Positions 15,861-36,339 of a stretch of DNA of 36,339 nucleotides are shown here, piece after piece. Positions within the stretch are counted from its first letter, which is position 1. The number at the start of each line of letters is the position of its first letter. The position numbers and the translations under genes were made by a program. The notes under the pieces were generated by a model. That model saw nothing but the letters and a program-made list of their open reading frames with translations, did not search any database and was not told where the DNA came from. Source of the stretch: a virus; IMG/VR virus record IMGVR_UViG_3300020451_000014, positions 1-36,339 of that record. One strand, given 5' to 3'.

Positions 15861-17776
15861 TACCTTCTCCCGTCTGGACGTATCTCAAGTCTTGGTGTAC
15901 CTAATCTCCAAGTTACACCTTGATTAACTGATTCTATTCTAAATGCAAAACTTCTACCACGAACCCGTATAAATACTTGATCTGTAAACTGTTCAACAGG
16001 AACAGATGAAGTCTTTGTTACGTTCTGTGTATCAGATTGAAGATAGTTTCCACCGGGGAAGTTTCTAGTTTTGATTGTAAAAACTGCTTCTGGTGTGGAC
16101 ACAGAAGAGTTCAAGAACGTAATGTCTGGAACAAGTCTTGTCATAAAAATAAACCTATCGCCCTCACCTAAATCTATTTGACTTGATTCAATGTGCGCTT
16201 CTATAGGTTGAACAGGATCATAGGAACCATCATCAAAACCATTTTCATGTTCATATAAATAACCATTACTAGCTGCGATTGGAAAGTCATTTATTCCTCT
16301 GTCTATCCAGGCAGTTCTTCCAAGATTACCAAAGTACCAAACCTTTTCTTGGTAATTATATACAACATACCTATCTACATTTTCGCTAGAAGAAGATGGA
16401 TAAAACCACCATATCTCTGAATTAGCACTATTCAAACCAGCTGTTACTTTGTTTGCTTGTAAATCATTGAAGTCATCAAAAACATGATCTCTTACGGTGC
16501 AAGGTAATTTTTGTACTTGACCAGTATATACATAGAACTCATTTCTACCCATCCAAAACACACTATCTTCAATAGCAATAGCTGCTAATGGTCCTCTTAC
16601 TGTAATGTTTTCTGATATAAGATTAACACCAAAGGTAAAAGGTGGACCTAGAAACTGCATAGAATATAAAGACTCATCTGTGAATACCAGTATTTGTTGT
16701 CTTGTTTCTTGTGCTGTAATGATCTCAGAACCAGAACCAAGTCTTAATTCACCTGCTGTATTGGTTGCAGTTGCTGCCCAATCAGTTAGAGATTCTTGGC
16801 TCGAGAACCTAATAGACAAAGGATCTTGTACTCCGGGATTAGCTTCTGTATCACAACCAAAAGCTATAATATGTCTATCTTTATCAGATACCATAATCTG
16901 TTTTGCTATAGTAGGTGCGCTAATGGAACCTGCCAAACTACTTAATGCTACTGCCCTAGTACCTGTACCATTGGTTGCATCCCAATAGTAAATATTACCA
17001 TTTCTTATATTCATAAGAAGATCTTCACCAAAGTTATCATGTGACCAAATTCTTAAAGTGTCAGTAGCTAGGTTAATAGTTGCAGCTTCACCCCATCCTG
17101 CTCTACCCCATGTTCCAACTCCCCAACCATTACTAAGAACTACAGTATCTATTCCACTATTGACTTGATATTGTCCAGTTGTACCACCACCATTACCAGA
17201 ATCAGAACCATCTGCATTAACCTCAGTAGGAGTATATACTCCATTTACAGATATATCACTTAGATCTTGTACAGTTCTTGCTCTAATCGTGTAAGAGTTT
17301 GCGTTTACTACCTCATCTATTTTATATTCTTGTTGAAGAATAGCTTTAGTTATTTGACCACCTAACCCACCTGCAGTAGTTACAGAGCTATAGATAACAA
17401 AATCACCTTGTACTGCACCATGACCTGTATGAGTAACAGTAAGTACAGAAGAACCATTTACTGCAGCAAAAGTTATACCCGTTGCAGCGTTAGTTCTTAT
17501 TGGAGTAATGTCATAGTATACACCAGATTGTTCAATGTAATACTTTGCATCACAACCAAGACCAATAAATTTATCAAGGTTTAAAGAAACCCAAGGATGT
17601 AATGCACGACAAGTTCCAAGGAACGAGGTAGTAGATTTTTTTAACCAACCACCAATTTTTTCTGGCAGACCGAATCTAAACCTAACTTTGTCTACATCAA
17701 ACCAACCACCCTCGTTTGTATAAGAAGTAGTTTCTTTATTAACACCGGGTTTAAATTGAAGTTTTTGTAAAGGCAT
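15860..17776 (-). CDS. Putative tail accessory / DNA stabilization protein (P22 gp10-like)
   Basis: 638 residues, beta-rich throughout, without transmembrane segments. The N-terminus has KPGVNKETTSYTNEGGWFDV, then FRFGLPEKIGGWLK, a start I associate with phage packaged-DNA stabilization or tail-needle-platform proteins. Repeated W/G and beta-strand blocks (WGVGTWGRAGWGEA at about 220-233) fit a beta-propeller. A region at about 100-165 looks like an inserted Ig-like or beta domain (VLTVTHTGHGAVQGD). The ATG is preceded by TAGGAG and by a candidate promoter. The gp10 name is by analogy; certainty is moderate. Confidence 0.6.
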   Translation of the reverse strand: MPLQKLQFKPGVNKETTSYTNEGGWFDVDKVRFRFGLPEKIGGWLKKSTTSFLGTCRALHPWVSLNLDKFIGLGCDAKYYIEQSGVYYDITPIRTNAATGITFAAVNGSSVLTVTHTGHGAVQGDFVIYSSVTTAGGLGGQITKAILQQEYKIDEVVNANSYTIRARTVQDLSDISVNGVYTPTEVNADGSDSGNGGGTTGQYQVNSGIDTVVLSNGWGVGTWGRAGWGEAATINLATDTLRIWSHDNFGEDLLMNIRNGNIYYWDATNGTGTRAVALSSLAGSISAPTIAKQIMVSDKDRHIIAFGCDTEANPGVQDPLSIRFSSQESLTDWAATATNTAGELRLGSGSEIITAQETRQQILVFTDESLYSMQFLGPPFTFGVNLISENITVRGPLAAIAIEDSVFWMGRNEFYVYTGQVQKLPCTVRDHVFDDFNDLQANKVTAGLNSANSEIWWFYPSSSSENVDRYVVYNYQEKVWYFGNLGRTAWIDRGINDFPIAASNGYLYEHENGFDDGSYDPVQPIEAHIESSQIDLGEGDRFIFMTRLVPDITFLNSSVSTPEAVFTIKTRNFPGGNYLQSDTQNVTKTSSVPVEQFTDQVFIRVRGRSFAFRIESVNQGVTWRLGTPRLEIRPDGRR

Positions 17777-18426: not shown

Positions 18427-19226
18427 TATATCCATTCCTCCCAGAATATGTTGTAACGTTCTCTTAAATTGTTTGCGAAAGGTTCTACTCTGCCTAAGTC
18501 AGTTCTTCCAGATCGCATTTCTTTTTCAATAGTGTGCATAGTATCGTACATTCCATAGTGTCGATCAAGTTGTTTATTTGCATTTTGAATGTTGTTTGTT
18601 TGAAAATTAAAAGCACTAGCTCCTATGTAGTCACAAAGTTTATTTAATTCTTTTTGTGGGTTAGCACAAAGTTTATGATAATCTATAAACAAAAAGTCTT
18701 TAGCTCTTTGTTGGATTACAGATGCTTCATACAAAGCAGTATACGTTCTACCTATGGCTCCTTTGTAACTCATAAACTCTTCAACCAATCCTAATGTAGT
18801 AGGATAAAGTTCTTGTTTTACTAAATCAGTTTCGTATGCTGTATAAGTAATTGGTTCTTTTTCTTTCAGACGTAAGAAAGAAGCAACACATTCTACAGGA
18901 TCACGAACCAAAACTACAACTTTATAGTCATCAAAAACTTGATCTGCCATGTCCAAATAAAAAAGCCACTCTCTATTCTTATCAAACACAAATTGATTGT
19001 GTGAATATAAATAAGAATGCAAAGATCCTTTTAATACTTTTAAACATTCTTTTTGTTGGTTAGTAGCCAATGACTTTGCATTATTATAAAATACATTTCG
19101 TATAGCATTTGAAATACCAATCGACAAAGATCCTTCTATAACTTTAAAATCGTCATGTTGACTCAACAACCCACACAAAATGGTGGATCCACTTCGTGGA
19201 AGACTAAATAAAATTACTGGCTTCAT
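18426..19226 (-). CDS. PAPS-dependent sulfotransferase
   Basis: 266 residues; transfers sulfate from PAPS to a hydroxyl or amine. The 5'-phosphosulfate loop FSLPRSGST (7-15) and the 3'-phosphate motif VLVRDPVECVASF (105-117, with R108 and S116) are clear. The C-terminal part is helical. No signal peptide, so it acts in the cytoplasm. Length is typical of the family. It overlaps the methyltransferase stop as ATGA and the hydroxylase start as TAATG. Target is unknown; a cell-surface glycan or a phage tail protein are options. Confidence 0.88.
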   Translation of the reverse strand: MKPVILFSLPRSGSTILCGLLSQHDDFKVIEGSLSIGISNAIRNVFYNNAKSLATNQQKECLKVLKGSLHSYLYSHNQFVFDKNREWLFYLDMADQVFDDYKVVVLVRDPVECVASFLRLKEKEPITYTAYETDLVKQELYPTTLGLVEEFMSYKGAIGRTYTALYEASVIQQRAKDFLFIDYHKLCANPQKELNKLCDYIGASAFNFQTNNIQNANKQLDRHYGMYDTMHTIEKEMRSGRTDLGRVEPFANNLRERYNIFWEEWI

Positions 19227-19873
19227 ACGTCTGCGGTTACTAGAATATTACCTGCCCAATTAGAAGAATAAGAGCTTGGATTTTTCCAAGTAAGACTACT
19301 ATACGAACTATCTAAATAAGATTTTATATTATTTATAGTAGGAACTTTAGTTTTTGCATACCAATTACCTACTCCAGAATCTGGATTAGTTCTTTCTACA
19401 GAATCAGCAGAGGTACATACAGGTCCTTCAAGAATAAGTTTATCTCCAAAACTAGCTAGTTTTGTTATAAGTGTGGATTGAGTAGTTCCAAGATGGATCA
19501 TGCCTGCACAAAAAACTACATCAATATCAGCAGGTGCTGTATAATCTTCCCACTTAGAAATCGCTAAAGTATATTTGGAAGTAGCAAAGTATTTTTGTAA
19601 ATTAGTATTAGCAACACCAATGACACCACTATCAGAATCAATACCAACAACGTGACTTGCGTTTTGATCTAATAGCCAACTCATCCATCTTCCATTGTTG
19701 CAACCTACATCAAGAACTTTTTTACCACTAACTAAAGATGCAATACTATTAAAAAACGTAGCTCTGTCATTTAGTACCGTTTTAGAAATACCTGTTCCTT
19801 TGGATCCTACGTTCTGTTCAGTAAGTCCATCTGCTTCGTCCGTAAAATCTAATTTGTCATTGAAGTAAGTCAT
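19223..19873 (-). CDS. Class I SAM-dependent methyltransferase
   Basis: 216 residues. Motif I VLDVGCNNGRW (53-63) and the acidic residue after the second strand (GIDSD, D79) define a Rossmann methyltransferase; DVVFCAGMIHLG at about 120-131 is the motif IV region. No NPPY, so a DNA-adenine substrate is unlikely. It may act on a small molecule, a glycan or a protein. The start overlaps the upstream gene by 17 nt. It belongs to the cargo block next to the adhesin. Confidence 0.82.
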   Translation of the reverse strand: MTYFNDKLDFTDEADGLTEQNVGSKGTGISKTVLNDRATFFNSIASLVSGKKVLDVGCNNGRWMSWLLDQNASHVVGIDSDSGVIGVANTNLQKYFATSKYTLAISKWEDYTAPADIDVVFCAGMIHLGTTQSTLITKLASFGDKLILEGPVCTSADSVERTNPDSGVGNWYAKTKVPTINNIKSYLDSSYSSLTWKNPSSYSSNWAGNILVTADV

Positions 19874-29959: not shown

Positions 29960-30871
29960 TTATGCACCAGGTGATCCAAAGATGCAACGAGGATCTGAAA
30001 AACCAAAAGAATATCTTTCTCTGGCTTTATACCTCATGTTTCCTGTATCAAAATCTGCTTCCATATTAGTTGAAAGTGCAGTTCTCTCAAAGTGTATCAT
30101 TCCACGTGGAGCATCTGTCATAATGAAGAATGCGTCTGGATCTGTAAGGAAATCATTTACTGCGTAGCCTTGCGGTAACATCCCCATAGATCTAAGAGCA
30201 TTTGTATCATTATCAGCGGTTCCTACTCTAAGATTAGAAACCATCAACCTTTCAGCTACAAACTGTAACTGTCTTGGTAAAATAAGTTTCATTCCTCTAA
30301 GAGCAACTTTTAAGCCACGTTCATCAACAAAGCCAGCAATACTGATTAAAGCATCTTCAAGAGATGTTTCATTCAAGTCTGCAGCTGTGCCTGGTTCGTT
30401 GGCAAAAGTACCACCACTCGTTAATGGATGTGATGCGTCACATAAAGCCACACCATCTCCACCAGCATTAGCGCCTGCGAGAAAAGCATTGTTAAGTACT
30501 GAAGCAGCCTTAACTTGCTTTGTGTGAGCCATAGAACGAGCTAATGCACGAGTGTATCTCGCACCAAGACGATCATAAAGATTGTCTTCAATAGCTTCTT
30601 CTGTAATAGAAAATGCTAGTGCGATTGTTTCGTGATTATAACGTGCGGTATAGGCCTCGTTTGCATCATCAAAGTTGACATTTCCACCTTCCGATTTGGT
30701 AGGTGCTGCGCCAAAACCTGACAACATTACTTCTTCTTCAAACGCACGGTCTGAATTTTCAGTAGTGTAGATTTCAGCATGTTGGTTCTCGTACCGATCA
30801 TACTCCATTCCAAACAGGGCATTAAGACCGGGTTCTAACTCTTTCGCTAGTTGTGCGCGAGATATAGCCAT
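29960..30871 (-). CDS. Major capsid protein
   Basis: 303 residues. N-terminal RAQLAKELEPGLNALFGMEY, then FEEEVMLSGFGAAPTKSEGG, YNHETIALAFSITEEAIEDNLYD and later TDAPRGMIHFERTALSTNMEADFDTGNMRYKARERYSFGFSDPR, the known pattern of phage capsid proteins in marine tailed phages (HK97-type fold inferred). It follows scaffold and decoration-like genes and is itself followed by a strong terminator, as expected for the most abundant product. AAGGAG lies 7-8 nt ahead of the ATG. Confidence 0.88.
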   Translation of the reverse strand: MAISRAQLAKELEPGLNALFGMEYDRYENQHAEIYTTENSDRAFEEEVMLSGFGAAPTKSEGGNVNFDDANEAYTARYNHETIALAFSITEEAIEDNLYDRLGARYTRALARSMAHTKQVKAASVLNNAFLAGANAGGDGVALCDASHPLTSGGTFANEPGTAADLNETSLEDALISIAGFVDERGLKVALRGMKLILPRQLQFVAERLMVSNLRVGTADNDTNALRSMGMLPQGYAVNDFLTDPDAFFIMTDAPRGMIHFERTALSTNMEADFDTGNMRYKARERYSFGFSDPRCIFGSPGA

Positions 30872-30883
30872 AGATTATTCTCC

Positions 30884-31519
30884 TTATACGCCTGTGGTAG
30901 ATGGAGTACCAGCAGCAATCGCACCATTTGGTGAATTGAAGCTGTTATTCAATCTAACGATTAATGGAATACCAGCAGCAGCAAAATCAGAATTTGAAGG
31001 ATCTTCTTGGATACCCATAATTCTGAGATGTAATGTGTTGGTAGTTGCGATAGTTCCAACTGCAAGTTTTGCGCTAGATATACCAGTTGTTGTAGAACCG
31101 GATGCGCCTGTAGCAAAATTTGCATTTGCGAAAATATGCGCTCTGGCAGAGGCTTCATTTGTAAGCGTACCATCTGAACAGATCACAAAAGTTTGCATTG
31201 GGTTATCGTAAACGAAAGCCTTGACGGGGTGGTTAGAATCCGCGCCAGAGCCGGGCCAATAGTTGGAAAAGATTTTTTCACCAGTAGTGCTTGAAACGTA
31301 CTCACAACCCCAAAAAACTCCTAATAATCCTACACTTCCACCTGCGGCAGCACCAACTTTATCTATAACACCAGCAGCAAGAGGTATTACGGGTGAGCCT
31401 TGGAACATAGTATTTGAGTTATTGTAAGCTATGCGATACTCAGTTGCACCAGTAGTGTTGTAAGCCGATCCGACTACACCAATCGGTCTTAGACCGAAAG
31501 CACCATTGATATTTGCCAT
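30884..31519 (-). CDS. Putative capsid decoration / head protein
   Basis: 211 residues. Begins MANINGAFGLRPIGVVGSAY, followed by NNSNTMFQGSPVIPLAAGVI, EYVSSTTGEKIFSNYWPGSG and NPMQTFVICSDGTLT. All-beta. It lies directly between the 152-residue gene and the capsid gene, the position of decoration or cement proteins in lambda-like heads; the role is inferred from position. TAGGAG is 8-9 nt ahead of the ATG. Confidence 0.68.
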   Translation of the reverse strand: MANINGAFGLRPIGVVGSAYNTTGATEYRIAYNNSNTMFQGSPVIPLAAGVIDKVGAAAGGSVGLLGVFWGCEYVSSTTGEKIFSNYWPGSGADSNHPVKAFVYDNPMQTFVICSDGTLTNEASARAHIFANANFATGASGSTTTGISSAKLAVGTIATTNTLHLRIMGIQEDPSNSDFAAAGIPLIVRLNNSFNSPNGAIAAGTPSTTGV

Positions 31520-31541
31520 ATTGACAATCTCCTAAGTTAAA

Positions 31542-32000
31542 TTATTCGGAGTTTTTACCCCCGAAGGTTACACGACTTTGCCTACTATTACTAATAGGCA
31601 TCGAAGGATGTTGCTCCTTCATTAAGTCCTGATCGACAGCTGTCATTTGTTCGCGGGTTCGGCCCCCGTAGTACTCGTTTCTTTCCTGCGCTGTTTCTTC
31701 AGGTATGCGGCACAGCATCAATCCACCTTGTCCTATAACTCCTTGATATTGACCATCATCAATAACAGGTGCTTCAAAATTTGGATATTCGTCTGAACGG
31801 ACGGGTTCCCATCCTTCACGTAGTTTAGAATGAACATTCATCTTGTCCTCTTCTCCACGCATTGCGACTCTTATCCATCTATGCACAAAACCTTTTGGTG
31901 GGTCTGGTGCTTCAAGGTGGGCAGGCGGCGCCCAAGGTTTTCTGCGCATATCTGCTTCTCTCGAAGCATCTTTTCTTGCGATTCTTTTTTCTTCAGTCAT
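31542..32000 (-). CDS. Conserved phage protein between scaffold and capsid genes
   Basis: 152 residues, charged, Pro/Trp in the N-terminal part (KPWAPPAHLEAPDPPKGFVH, RWIRVAMRGEEDKMN) and a tail of Arg/Gln/Ser. No Cys cluster, no membrane segment. I recall similar proteins in the same position in other marine phages; no function is known. Likely a head-assembly factor. Confidence 0.6.
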   Translation of the reverse strand: MTEEKRIARKDASREADMRRKPWAPPAHLEAPDPPKGFVHRWIRVAMRGEEDKMNVHSKLREGWEPVRSDEYPNFEAPVIDDGQYQGVIGQGGLMLCRIPEETAQERNEYYGGRTREQMTAVDQDLMKEQHPSMPISNSRQSRVTFGGKNSE

Positions 32001-32002
32001 AT

Positions 32003-32902
32003 CTAGTCCTTCACATATTTAGCATATTGTTCAAGAGGTACTCCTAACTTTTTTGCTATCGCAACTTGCGAAGGCGATAGTTTGACCGTCCTGCGCCCGG
32101 TTTTGGTATTGCGGGATGCGGAGTTACCAGCCGAGGCGACCTGGGTTCCACCCGTAGATTTCTTCGTTTGGAACTTCTGTGGAAACTCCGAACGTATTCT
32201 TTTATCTATCTCACTATAATACTCTTCTGTCTTCGGGTCAAACCCTTCTTCGTTTGTAAGAATATTATGTAAAGTAAAAGCAGCTGTTGTCATAATCTTG
32301 TCACTACCAAACCATTCGTTCTGACTTGCCCACTCTTTAGCTCTAGGATCTGGTTGAGCTTGAGCTTGTGGTTGTTGAGCTTGTTGTTCTGGTCGTGGTG
32401 CTGGTGCTTTAGCTTGTTGTTCAACACGAGCTTTAGCTGTATTGTACCTTTGTTTATCTACAGCTATTTGAGAAAGCATCTCTTGTGCTTGCACCATTTT
32501 ATCCGAATCACCTGCTTCGTAGGCTTCTTTGTACATACGTTTAGCTGCTTCTGATTGTGAATTTATTCTATTGCCATATTCTGCAACATAGCCAGTATCT
32601 AAGTTTTTAACTCTAGCTTGAAGTTTTTTGTTCTCTTCCAGTAATTGTTGCGATACTCTTAGAGCTTCAGCCTTATCTCTTTCTTCTTGTCGATACTTTT
32701 CTGTTAGTTTCTTTATTCTAGCTTGAACTCCCTTGCTATAAGAATCTAACTCTTCTTCTTTCTTTTCTTCGGTTGCTGTTTCTTCAACCTTTACTTCAGG
32801 TGTTTCACGTGAAACATCTTCTTTAGATTCTTGTTTCTCTTCTTCTACAACAATCTCTTCTTTAACTTCTTCTTGCTTATCTTCTACTTTTTCTTCTGCC
32901 AT
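32003..32902 (-). CDS. Capsid scaffold protein
   Basis: 299 residues. Strongly acidic N-terminus (residues 1-53, Glu/Lys repeats), a long coiled coil at about 58-108, a Gln/Pro/Ala-rich linker at 165-190, and a C-terminal basic helix (LSPSQVAIAKKLGVPLEQYAK), the usual layout of scaffolding proteins whose C-terminus contacts the coat. It lies two genes before the capsid gene. Codons for residues 29-34 (D-V-S-R-E-T) contain a perfect parS palindrome. No protease motif is seen. Confidence 0.85.
   Translation of the reverse strand: MAEEKVEDKQEEVKEEIVVEEEKQESKEDVSRETPEVKVEETATEEKKEEELDSYSKGVQARIKKLTEKYRQEERDKAEALRVSQQLLEENKKLQARVKNLDTGYVAEYGNRINSQSEAAKRMYKEAYEAGDSDKMVQAQEMLSQIAVDKQRYNTAKARVEQQAKAPAPRPEQQAQQPQAQAQPDPRAKEWASQNEWFGSDKIMTTAAFTLHNILTNEEGFDPKTEEYYSEIDKRIRSEFPQKFQTKKSTGGTQVASAGNSASRNTKTGRRTVKLSPSQVAIAKKLGVPLEQYAKYVKD
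32801..32816. promoter_or_regulatory. parS: Perfect parS-like ParB site inside the scaffold gene
   Basis: TGTTTCACGTGAAACA is a complete 16-bp palindrome and matches the conserved chromosomal parS site bound by ParB. It lies in coding sequence (V-S-R-E-T of the scaffold). No parA or parB gene is seen in the window, so host ParB would be the likely binder. Site identity is certain as sequence; function is not demonstrated. Confidence 0.8.
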
Positions 32903-32910
32903 GATAACCT

Positions 32911-33378
32911 CTACACGTTTTTAATATCATCGGGATCTAATAGAGTAGCAATAACTTCGTCATCATTGATGATACGAACTTCTCCACCATCTATCTTAAA
33001 TCTTGAGCCAGAGTATCTTCCTATACATACCCATTCTTTTTCTTGACACCAAGGCTTATCACCAAATTTATTTTGATCTGCATAAGCTAATGGACCAAGT
33101 TTGAGTACATACGCCACAACTGTAGCTACCGATTCTCTTTCTCTCACCTCATCAGGAACATAAATACCACCAGTTGTTTTAGCTTTCCCTTGATATGGCA
33201 TAACTAAAACTCTCCAACCAGTTGGTTGAGGTAGTCTTTCCATTAAACTTTTATCGAGAAGTGAGGGATCTAATACTCTATTACCAGGTTCTACGTAAGG
33301 AATTTTGGTTTCTTTCTTCTTTTCAATTTCCTTTTTAACGTGGTCAGGAACGTAAAGTGTCTTCGTCATAATTGTCAT
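32911..33378 (-). CDS. GroES-like co-chaperonin (Cpn10)
   Basis: 155 residues from the ATG at 33378; GGAG lies 4 nt ahead, and the ATG at 33369 is a second candidate; an upstream TTG lacks support. The Cpn10 domain spans about 48-150: TGWRVLVMP, the mobile-loop segment GKAKTTGGIYVPDE (64-77), VATVVAYVLKLG, then PWCQEKEWVCIGRYSGSRFKIDGG and a final strand. The chaperonin-binding tripeptide is IYV rather than the IVL of E. coli GroES. Lies next to the scaffold and capsid genes, as with T4 gp31, so it may adapt host GroEL to coat folding. No phage GroEL is seen here. Confidence 0.85.
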   Translation of the reverse strand: MTIMTKTLYVPDHVKKEIEKKKETKIPYVEPGNRVLDPSLLDKSLMERLPQPTGWRVLVMPYQGKAKTTGGIYVPDEVRERESVATVVAYVLKLGPLAYADQNKFGDKPWCQEKEWVCIGRYSGSRFKIDGGEVRIINDDEVIATLLDPDDIKNV

Positions 33379-33556
33379 TATTCTCCAGCAGGGCCTTGAT
33401 TTCTTCACGTGCAAGAGAAAGACCCCGTATTTCTCCTACTGTCATTTTGTACTCTTCCCAACTTTTAACACCACCAGCAGCAAGAGCAGAGGTAAGGTTT
33501 TCTTCCCTCTCCTTTAACCTTTTATACAAATATTTCGAGAAGTCAACAACATCCAT
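33344..33556 (-). CDS. Small helical phage protein
   Basis: 70 residues from the ATG at 33556, preceded by GAGGG 9 nt ahead; an in-frame TTG at 33571 is less likely. Helical and charged: SKYLYKRLKEREENLTSALA, then SWEEYKMTVGEIRGLSLARE, ending in acidic residues. The ends overlap the GroES gene by 35 bp. Unknown function; similar small helical proteins occur next to phage lysis genes. Confidence 0.65.
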   Translation of the reverse strand: MDVVDFSKYLYKRLKEREENLTSALAAGGVKSWEEYKMTVGEIRGLSLAREEIKALLENNDNYDEDTLRS

Positions 33557-33567
33557 ACAATTATCCC

Positions 33568-33768
33568 TCAAGTTTCTTTATTTAATTTAATTTTTTGACA
33601 CAAAGGTTTAACATGATGTATGGAAGGATTGTCAATTAAAATCCTTGCTTTGTCTACAGAAACAGATAAACACTCATCTAGCGTATCATAAAATTCCCAA
33701 TTCCTTGTTACTACTAAACAATCTTGTGCAAACATACTAGCACAAACCAAAAGAATTGGCATCCACAT
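33568..33768 (-). CDS. Small secreted protein with signal peptide, after endolysin
   Basis: 66 residues. The N-terminus MWMPILLVCASMFAQDC looks like a short signal peptide (cleavage likely near residues 14-16); three further Cys at about 17, 33 and 57 may form disulfides in the periplasm. Location directly after endolysin suggests a spanin-like or other lysis accessory role, but no lipobox is convincing. One base separates it from the endolysin stop. Confidence 0.6.
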   Translation of the reverse strand: MWMPILLVCASMFAQDCLVVTRNWEFYDTLDECLSVSVDKARILIDNPSIHHVKPLCQKIKLNKET

Positions 33769-33769
33769 A

Positions 33770-34225
33770 TTATTGTATCAATTCGAAATGAGGTCCATCT
33801 ATGAAAGGCCGTCTACCCTGGCTACGCCGTAGATCAATATAGCTATTCATAGCACCTTCCATACCACTATTCCATTGAGCAATATCTCCTATGCTCCACG
33901 CTGCTCCCCATTTAATTGCAACGTTATGTGTCTTAGCAGCTTTAGCCATTGCATCAGCTATATCATCATAAAGATTCAACTCCCATGATGCTCTTGAGCC
34001 ACAGTAAGCCATGAGGTCGACCGCTAAACCTTCAAGGTGTTTCGATGCCATTGTTTGGCTCGCGCCTTTATCTACAAGCGCACGTTGTTCGGCTTCCGTG
34101 CGCATCCCGCAGATCACACCAAAATCCACCTTGGTCCATTCTATGGCGCTTTTGACACACTTCACCATATCTGGATGTACCCCTTCTAGTTTATCAAGAG
34201 ATCTTTGACTTAATTTAAAACTCAT
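33770..34225 (-). CDS. Endolysin, M15 peptidase (L-Ala-D-Glu or D-Ala-D-Ala type)
   Basis: 151 residues; cuts peptidoglycan peptide cross-links at lysis. The zinc site SKHLEGLAVDL (S61, H63, D70) and DGPHFEL (H146) match the SxHxxGxAxD and distal His of M15 peptidases such as the T5 endolysin; R42 in GMRTEAEQ fits the substrate Arg. No signal peptide, so a holin is needed for export. The ATG overlaps the holin stop as ATGA. Confidence 0.9.
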   Translation of the reverse strand: MSFKLSQRSLDKLEGVHPDMVKCVKSAIEWTKVDFGVICGMRTEAEQRALVDKGASQTMASKHLEGLAVDLMAYCGSRASWELNLYDDIADAMAKAAKTHNVAIKWGAAWSIGDIAQWNSGMEGAMNSYIDLRRSQGRRPFIDGPHFELIQ

Positions 34226-34623
34226 TTTGTTAACCCTTTCTGCTTTTCGTATGTCCGTAATCCTCCGATTCCTAGCATTCCGGCTAAAACCGTAAGAAGT
34301 GTATTCATGTCAAATTTTGGTAATTCTGGTATTTCTATACCAATTAACGCCACTACAAAAATAATAACAGGCTGAAGAACAAAGTGATAGCCAAAAGCAA
34401 TCCCACAGATCCAACCAATGCAAGGACGCCAGCCACCTTTAAACAGGCTTCCACTAGCAGCCTCTGCTGCATTGACCTTAATTTGGGCGAGGGCCAACTG
34501 TTGAGCATGTTTCTCTGACATGGTTGCAATCTCATGGGATAATTTACGCTTGAGATCTTGGTCAGGTATTGCTTTATCTAATAAACTAGATACTGGTTCT
34601 ATAAGACTACTGAGCAGGCTCAC
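34222..34623 (-). CDS. Holin of the 3TM (gene-transfer-agent) family
   Basis: 133 residues from a GTG at 34623, chosen because AAAGGA lies about 7 nt ahead; the track-like upstream extension runs deep into the preceding gene. A helical N-terminal half is followed by FKGGWRPCIGWICGIAFGYH (61-80), the signature of the 3TM holin family, then hydrophobic stretches at about 82-97 and 107-122. It acts in the inner membrane to release the endolysin encoded next. Confidence 0.82.
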   Translation of the reverse strand: MSLLSSLIEPVSSLLDKAIPDQDLKRKLSHEIATMSEKHAQQLALAQIKVNAAEAASGSLFKGGWRPCIGWICGIAFGYHFVLQPVIIFVVALIGIEIPELPKFDMNTLLTVLAGMLGIGGLRTYEKQKGLTK

Positions 34624-34825
34624 CTTTGGTTCCTTTCTCTCCACTACACCAAATACCAAAACAACCCGTGAGGGCGCCAAATGACACCGAAACTAGTCCG
34701 GCTTGTTCTAAAGTTGGTGCTTCAATCTGCATAAACCAATGGACACTTTGATATGTCAATACTGTTACTGCAGCCATCATAATTCTAGGAAAAATTTTAT
34801 AGTCATCTATTATTGTCGCTGGCAT
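34607..34825 (-). CDS. Small two-helix membrane protein, holin-like
   Basis: 72 residues from the ATG at 34825 (GAGAGGG just ahead). Two hydrophobic helices at about 13-31 and 41-60, ending in a charged tail. The opening MPATIIDDYKIFPRIMMAAV is a segment I recall from other marine phages. Could be a second holin, an antiholin or an unrelated membrane protein. It overlaps the 3TM holin gene by 17 nt. Confidence 0.65.
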   Translation of the reverse strand: MPATIIDDYKIFPRIMMAAVTVLTYQSVHWFMQIEAPTLEQAGLVSVSFGALTGCFGIWCSGEKGTKGEPAQ

Positions 34826-35369
34826 GATACCCTCTCGAATAAAATTTAAATTTATCTGGATCCTGTTTAGGTTGTCCACTAAATAGATGCCATGCTACAT
34901 TATCTTTACCTGTATGTCTACTATTAGCAATCCATTTTACTCTACCTACTGGTTGAACCTTATGTAGATATTGTATGTACGGAACGCTTTGTTTTGTGTG
35001 CATCCAATCAGAATCTAACAATAACCACGTGGGTCTGACCATACAAAGCCATGTTATACTTTGATGTAAAAAATCCCTAGACCAAGGAGGATTTGTGATA
35101 ATTACGTCACATGCCATAGTGTATTCTGATAAGGTTAAATCAAAAACATCTCTTTTTAGTATGTCGTCACGTTGTGGTTCTATGTCAGACTTCCATAAAC
35201 ACTTCATACCAGTTAAGTTTTCTATAGCATCTATCAATGCTCCATTCCCTGCCATTGGCTCTGCAAACGTAGATAATCTGTGTAGGTGAGGTATTAAAGG
35301 TTCTACTGCATTAAAAGGGGTAGGGTAAAAATCTCTTGGCTTTCTGGGAAAGTCAGATCTCTTACCCAC
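34803..35369 (-). CDS. DNA methyltransferase-like protein (NPPW)
   Basis: 188 residues. RDFYPTPFNAVEPLIPHL precedes the SAM motif TFAEPMAGNGAL (34-45), and the catalytic-type motif DVIITNPPW lies at 88-96, in the order of adenine or cytosine-N4 methyltransferases. Short for the family and without a recognisable target-recognition domain; orphan phage methyltransferase or an altered relative. It lies at the head of the lysis genes. Confidence 0.78.
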   Translation of the reverse strand: MGKRSDFPRKPRDFYPTPFNAVEPLIPHLHRLSTFAEPMAGNGALIDAIENLTGMKCLWKSDIEPQRDDILKRDVFDLTLSEYTMACDVIITNPPWSRDFLHQSITWLCMVRPTWLLLDSDWMHTKQSVPYIQYLHKVQPVGRVKWIANSRHTGKDNVAWHLFSGQPKQDPDKFKFYSRGYHASDNNR

Positions 35370-35926
35370 TACATCAACGAACCAAGCATACCACCTATGC
35401 CACCACCAAGCATACCAGATGGCATTGAAGAAACTTTTGTAGATTGTATAGGTTGTTGAGTAGTGCTTCCTGTTAGTGAACCAAGTGCTTCTAAAAATTT
35501 TGATTGATCGAATGTTCCAGCATTAAGTGGATTATCTGGATAATTAATTGGATCGTTTACTGGATCTGGAACTCCAAAACTTAGAATACCACCACGACCC
35601 CCATAAGGTTGATATGGACCGGGTTGCTGCATAGGACCTTGAAATTCGTTTAAAGGTGGGGGATATGCTTGTCCAAAGCTAGGAAAGTTTTCATTAACTA
35701 AAGATCTAACCCCTGATATGGTATTATTTACCCTTTGCATATTAGCCATTGCATTATCTTTATTAGCCAATTTATGCAAAGCCATTGTTAATTGCATCAT
35801 TGGTTGTAATGGTTGTTGCCTAAACCCTCCAATTCCTAAAGAACCAAGTGGTTTTGGAGTGATTGAAGGAAACCCTGATTTTGGGTCTATTGGTCCTTCA
35901 TCAAATAAGTCAGGGTTATACATCAT
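35369..35926 (-). CDS. Pro/Gly/Met-rich hypothetical protein
   Basis: 185 residues, low complexity: PLGSLGIGGFRQQPLQPMMQ, then FGQAYPPPLNEF, and a C-terminal GMLGGGIGGMLGSLM. No catalytic motif. The ATG has no clear ribosome site, and a strong -10-like box lies only about 10 nt upstream, so translation may be leaderless. Similar Pro/Gly-rich proteins occur near phage structural genes; function unknown. Confidence 0.55.
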   Translation of the reverse strand: MMYNPDLFDEGPIDPKSGFPSITPKPLGSLGIGGFRQQPLQPMMQLTMALHKLANKDNAMANMQRVNNTISGVRSLVNENFPSFGQAYPPPLNEFQGPMQQPGPYQPYGGRGGILSFGVPDPVNDPINYPDNPLNAGTFDQSKFLEALGSLTGSTTQQPIQSTKVSSMPSGMLGGGIGGMLGSLM

Positions 35927-35935
35927 AATTTTCGT

Positions 35936-35964
35936 AGTATACCTAAATTAATTATTATTGTCTA
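35936..35964 (-). promoter_or_regulatory. Strong sigma70-like promoter with near-zero leader
   Basis: On the - strand TAGACA (35959-35964) and TATACT (35936-35941) are 17 bases apart, close to the TTGACA / TATAAT consensus. The transcript would start near 35929, about 3 bases before the ATG of the 185-residue gene, which lacks a ribosome site. Confidence 0.65.
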
Positions 35965-36066
35965 CTTCAACATTATCCACCATTTTGTAGGATGAGGATA
36001 TAACGTATGGAAATAATAAGCAGCTAACACGATACTTATAAGTATAAGATCTTTTATTTCATACAT
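35962..36066 (-). CDS. Membrane micropeptide (34 residues)
   Basis: A very short gene. Its start overlaps the previous stop (ATGTATGA) and AAAAGG lies about 10 nt ahead. Sequence begins MYEIKDLILISIVLAAYYF, one hydrophobic helix, ending WWIMLK. Its 3' end overlaps the promoter at 35936-35964. Real only if it is conserved in relatives. Confidence 0.5.
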   Translation of the reverse strand: MYEIKDLILISIVLAAYYFHTLYPHPTKWWIMLK

Positions 36067-36339
36067 TATCAGCTTGCCTTTTTAACCAAATAACAAAAGC
36101 AATAAATCCTACAATAGTACAAAGTAACACAAAAATAAAAAATCCTTCAATACATTGTTGTTTAAATTTTTGTCTTGCATACAATTTTTCTGAGCGCTCC
36201 TTACGGATATTCCCCTCCATCCGCAATAAATCATCCCAGGCTTTAGACCCATACTTGAATTTTATAAATTGTTGAAGGTCATATCGCTGTTGTTCCAGTT
36301 GTTTTTTAGCTGTAAAACATTGTACTGCAGCTTGCTCAA
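36059..36339 (-). CDS. Partial protein with coiled coil and C-terminal membrane helix
   Basis: Open to the window edge, so the start lies beyond 36339; 92 codons are visible. The visible part is helical and charged (AKKQLEQQRYDLQQF, then SKAWDDLLRMEGNIRKERSE), followed by a membrane helix (GFFIFVLLCTIVGFIAFVIW) and a short LKRQADNV tail. Tail-anchored layout. Function unknown. Confidence 0.6.
   Translation of the reverse strand, partial: EQAAVQCFTAKKQLEQQRYDLQQFIKFKYGSKAWDDLLRMEGNIRKERSEKLYARQKFKQQCIEGFFIFVLLCTIVGFIAFVIWLKRQADNV

Follow-up and report, generated by a model that had tools for sequence, protein, structure and literature searches.

Orphan chromosomal-type parS in the putative scaffold gene of a phage family with no detectable ParB

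Judged from its sequence and its distribution, a 16-bp palindrome on a marine phage with no detectable ParB is very likely a functional parS site that is under selection at the DNA level and would load the ParB of the host. The site was found in a 36,339-nt stretch of viral DNA (hereafter the window; positions 1 to 36,339 of IMG/VR record IMGVR_UViG_3300020451_000014). It is the perfect palindrome TGTTTCACGTGAAACA at 32801–32816 (no strand assigned), an exact match to the 16-bp palindromic consensus of chromosomal-type parS, TGTTNCACGTGAAACA (Livny et al., 2007, as cited in PMC10197239), and no other match exists in the window even when up to three mismatches are allowed. The number of exact copies expected from base composition in 36 kb is about 1e-5, in agreement with the chance of about 1 in 100,000 given by the first-pass annotation. 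The same annotation had placed a perfect parS palindrome inside a scaffold gene and read it as codons for V-S-R-E-T, and both points hold: the exact 16-mer lies within the ORF 32003–32902, and on the minus strand it is read as GTT TCA CGT GAA ACA, encoding V30-S31-R32-E33-T34. Perfect palindromes of at least 16 bp occur only twice in the window, the other being an unrelated one of 18 bp, CAAAACTAGCTAGTTTTG, at 19447–19464 within a methyltransferase-like ORF (19223–19873).

The ORF carrying the site (32003–32902, minus strand, 299 aa) probably encodes a capsid scaffold, as suggested by its position and by its charged composition rich in Glu, Lys and Gln; the PHROG that it matches, phrog_28737, carries no assigned function. 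The parS lies in the N-terminal acidic linker of this protein. The surrounding late module is arranged in the order GroES-like gene, putative scaffold ORF, two ORFs and major capsid gene. The GroES-like co-chaperonin gene (32911–33414, minus strand, assigned by synteny, with an uncertain listed start codon) adjoins the scaffold gene, the major capsid gene (29960–30871, minus strand) lies downstream, and an endolysin gene (33770–34225, minus strand) is probably within spreading distance of parS. The order GroES-like/scaffold/capsid is common to the Pelagibacter phages HTVC027P and HTVC023P, and also to 023Pt_psg01, DSL-LC04 and the Roseobacter phages CRP-901/902. The sequence of the window phage, parS included, is found in two other IMG/VR records. 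One of them (L600, IMGVR_UViG_3300012953_000401) overlaps the end of the window (31491–36339) with 99.98% identity over 4,849 bp and adds about 13 kb, including an ORF of 1,817 aa, so that the phage is at least 49.6 kb long.

No partner of the site was found in the phage itself. The statement of the first-pass annotation that neither parA nor parB is visible is borne out by the scans: the ParB_N domain (PF02195) has no match in the window, ParA/ParB motifs are absent from the window and the ~13-kb extension (49.6 kb seen of a phage that may be longer), and a motif test for the Walker-type sequence KGGxGK[ST] of ParA was negative over the same region. A cognate parB, as in P1-type ParABS, was likewise sought by PF02195 in the window and 44 related records without any match, and a phage-encoded ParB was rejected as the partner of parS. 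As to signs of a temperate lifestyle, a search directed at tyrosine integrases found none in 45 records of the phage family and its relatives. As far as its sequence tells, the window phage appears to carry the parS of another replicon without par genes, which is the mark of an orphan-parS hijack. Of the 96 parS-bearing viral records searched, 92, including most of those of 30–200 kb, are without PF02195, and only four contain it.

Indeed, parS is far from rare in viral contigs. The first-pass annotation had proposed that many marine phages be scanned for the site, and a scan of IMG/VR gave a strong enrichment: TGTTTCACGTGAAACA occurs in at least 120 stretches, whereas two palindromes matched to it in composition, used as controls, occur in 1 and 6, so the enrichment is at least 20-fold and probably more than 150-fold. 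The GG-flanked form accounts for 14 of the first 120 stretches, and a separate scan for this form alone gave at least 120; given the same scan order, the total is therefore probably about 1,000 places or more, a count possibly inflated by records that may be host or plasmid DNA. Just outside the 16-mer, A and T are preferred with dyad symmetry in the viral sites (A at −1 in 58% and at −2 in 51%), and such symmetric flanks are expected of a protein-bound site, not of a random word. Among 263 distinct viral sites, 88 (33%) are intergenic, as against 7.3% of non-coding DNA. The remaining sites are read in the VSRET frame (136) or the FHVK frame (39) and never in the stop frame, in mostly unrelated proteins; when ten parS-bearing proteins were scanned against PHROGs, seven matched, among them members of terminase small subunit, endolysin, head assembly and transglycosylase families.

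The match in the window could still be a chance event or an assembly artefact, given that the window has a single site and many relatives have none. This is hardly credible, because the two further IMG/VR records of the same phage both carry the site, parS recurs in the phage family, and it exceeds the control palindromes at least 20-fold; a chance origin was rejected by these two controls.

Several arrangements of parS in other viral contigs are recorded here in their own right. In L215 (IMGVR_UViG_3300021068_000287), four parS sites with an exact spacing of 30 bp lie within one ORF at 2833–2938, forming a coding parS minisatellite with the repeat ...NRGVSRETMDNRG.... Three to five sites are clustered within 0.7–3 kb in L017 (2657–3444), L044 (10535–11462), L274, L220 and L053, with no ParB_N where it was searched for; such clusters may represent centromere arrays of phages, or else DNA from hosts. 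Furthermore, in L054 (3045–3779) and L112 (182–958), VSRET/parS lies near the N-terminus of a scaffold-like head protein from another family, so that parS may be located in scaffold genes more generally.

Within the family of the window phage, the site appears to have been acquired repeatedly, in the same scaffold gene and elsewhere, as the following comparisons of sequences indicate. A first protein search with the window scaffold gave 80 relatives, among which a scaffold parS was found only in the same phage; the N-terminal linker is variable, and the nearest relatives are without the VSRET residues altogether. One relative from this search (L057) has parS between two genes, about 2 kb from the scaffold gene. 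Two proteins from a collection-wide scan (L242 and L008) proved to be members of this scaffold family whose parS lies elsewhere in the protein. Directed scans that followed brought the parS-bearing scaffold ORFs to 58, of which 18 have two copies. Three positions in the protein are used: the extreme N-terminus (about residue 15), the N-terminal acidic linker, as in the window and others, and a central Q/P-rich linker. The 39 parS-bearing rows in a tree built from 139 homologues need six gains or losses, of which at least five are forced by well-supported branches. Each phage of one clade has three parS sites: a pair within the scaffold gene and a third about 7 kb upstream, which is read as M-N-V-S-R-E-T where a small ORF begins. 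Another family phage also has three, of which two are intergenic, and one of these two shares its gene junction with the site of L057. HTVC023P and near-complete relatives of 52–59 kb have no parS at all; since many relatives lack it, the site is optional. The nearest parS-free relatives of the window phage are only 64–72% identical, so a gain within its own small clade is drawn from few sequences. HTVC027P has a near-parS, CGTTTCACGTGAAACA, at 16412, inside an unannotated ORF (16216–16498) for a nuclease-like protein (...SPHQYAFHVKHP...); constraint on this protein may explain the near-parS, which is given little weight.

The codons of the scaffold genes bear on whether DNA or peptide is kept. 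If VSRET were a selected motif of the scaffold protein, as the prevalence of this frame among in-gene sites might suggest, the parS match would be a by-product, and the same residues should be free to change codons. In a sample of 80 homologues, chosen because their proteins resemble a scaffold that carries parS, exact parS is present in 24, and VSRET in other codons was found in none. Every VSRET has the exact parS codons, and the homologues without the site lack the whole peptide rather than recoding it. Thus, no relative was found that keeps the protein and changes the synonymous positions, the outcome that the first-pass annotation had named as evidence against its reading, and its claim of a genuine orphan parS in a phage gains support from the codon test. 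The repeated gain of parS at different positions of one gene, and the large excess of parS in viral contigs, go beyond what that annotation had noticed. Four near-sites occur in the sample, TGTTCCACGTGAAACA three times and TGTTTCACATGAAACA once; in the former, a functional parS of Bacillus type, the peptide is altered to VPRET and the parS spelling is retained. Over 21 distinct trimmed sequences, the five VSRET codons are identical, whereas only 17/159 of the other invariant residues use a single codon; the mean pairwise codon difference is 0 at VSRET and 0.33 at the other invariant residues (p about 5e-6). These 21 sequences were picked for carrying parS, so the unbiased part of the test is the lack of alternative VSRET codons among all 80. 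All 14 distinct sequences of the two-site clade have an intact N-terminal parS, which was not a search criterion. Selection on the peptide is very improbable and was rejected by the codon test, considering also that the location in the protein differs between clades, that other viruses have the 16-mer between genes or read it in the FHVK frame, and that the VPRET variant stays parS. The comparison indicates that parS is kept as DNA beyond its protein coding in related clades, those covered by the test, the clade of the window being too small for it.

If the host is a SAR11 bacterium, the host side is consistent with loading of host ParB. SAR11 is the host of the cultured relatives HTVC027P and HTVC023P, and is the presumed host of the window phage by this kinship rather than by direct identification; the GC content of the window, 39%, is above that of HTVC027P (about 35–37%) and counts against it. 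Among 30 partial SAR11 genomes, parS (at most one mismatch) was found in 22, nearly always in one copy, and ParB in 26; where both were seen, they are usually about 1.5–2 kb apart. The reversed control palindrome ACAAAGTGCACTTTGT (at most one mismatch) occurs once each in three of the 30 (G120, G132 and G146).

During infection, the host ParB–CTP clamp would load at the phage parS and from there slide along the DNA into the adjacent late genes, and a host-type partition complex would be formed on phage DNA. Binding by host ParB and a benefit to the phage are both predicted. The likeliest benefit would be that the ParA/SMC machinery of the host positions, spreads or separates the replicating phage genomes, and the next would be that ParB is titrated off the single chromosomal parS of the host as phage copies multiply. 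Among the possible uses, host positioning/segregation or SMC recruitment would thus come before titration, and transcriptional effects would come third; positioning of phage DNA, SMC recruitment and ParB titration cannot be separated by sequence. Probably, coding linkers of the scaffold are favoured as locations because five extra residues are tolerated there and the late module is away from the early genes.

Other roles for the site have to be weighed against ParA positioning. Phage genomes might serve as decoys that soak up ParB and block segregation and division of the host, positioning not being the point. A single parS in most SAR11 genomes would be outnumbered by tens of phage copies, some phages of the family have two or three sites, and surplus parS copies destabilize a resident replicon in the case of SGI1 and IncC (PMC10954446). 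A decoy would be expected to have many sites, however, and most parS phages have only one, while a late block of segregation would be of little gain to lytic phages; titration as the main role is possible but doubtful. It can also be proposed, tentatively, that ParB is recruited not for ParA positioning but for loading of SMC condensin, with compaction or disentangling of concatemers, or as a road-block to late transcription. The parS sites of the family cluster in the late structural module, and in many bacteria SMC is loaded by ParB, whose spreading covers kilobases, which fits such a role, but sequence does not set it apart from positioning. The palindrome might instead be the operator of another phage or host regulator that shares the recognition sequence of ParB. 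Perfect palindromes are typical of operators, and several sites immediately precede a gene (L057, L599); this is nevertheless improbable, because the same 16-mer is found in viral contigs of 27–72% GC without a common neighbour gene, and because it equals the chromosomal parS of the host, the tolerated T/C position included.

The reading as a parS that loads host ParB has parallels in known systems. The phage site and bacterial chromosomal parS of ParABS share the same 16-bp sequence and the tolerated T/C variant, with A/T flanks in the viral set, but the phage site is without parA/parB, lies within or between structural genes, occurs in 1–3 copies per genome and is optional. For parS on a mobile element that has no par genes, SGI1 is a direct precedent: it stabilizes itself and expels its helper IncC plasmid through stolen parS sites (PMC10954446). 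Like the window phage, SGI1 has parS but no par genes to go with it, and it exploits the ParB of another replicon, a use that is presumed for the phage; it differs as an integrative element that mimics a plasmid centromere, whereas the site here is of chromosomal type, in phages where no integrase was found. Phage-plasmids such as P1 likewise have a ParB-binding centromere on phage DNA (binding being predicted here), but P1 encodes its own ParA and ParB with a distinct parS, and phages of the window family have no detectable ParB. Engineered lambda-parS phages, whose infecting genomes are marked by CFP-ParB (PMC13190303), show that loading of ParB on the DNA of a phage is possible inside a cell; these are artificial heterologous pairs, in contrast to the natural orphan site of the window phage.

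The sites and proteins concerned, parS and ParB, and the theft of parS by one mobile element are already known. The open-access literature, preprints aside, yielded no earlier description of natural phages that carry an orphan parS of chromosomal type, and within that literature the orphan parS in phages with no detected integrase, its repeated gain in one structural gene and its conservation at the codon level appear to be new. It is somewhat more likely than not that this is a general strategy, in which many lytic phages of unrelated families and habitats use an orphan parS to put their DNA under host ParB/ParA/SMC, with repeated in-frame gain in the family described here.

How phage genomes are placed, separated and tethered in cells is largely an open question, especially for phages of slow-growing ocean bacteria. 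If the reading is true, one synonymous mutation would suffice to test it, and the 16-bp site would be a marker for searches of viral genomes. The orphan parS would form a direct link between infection by a phage and the centromere system of bacteria, and loading of ParB could influence infection or be exploited in it.
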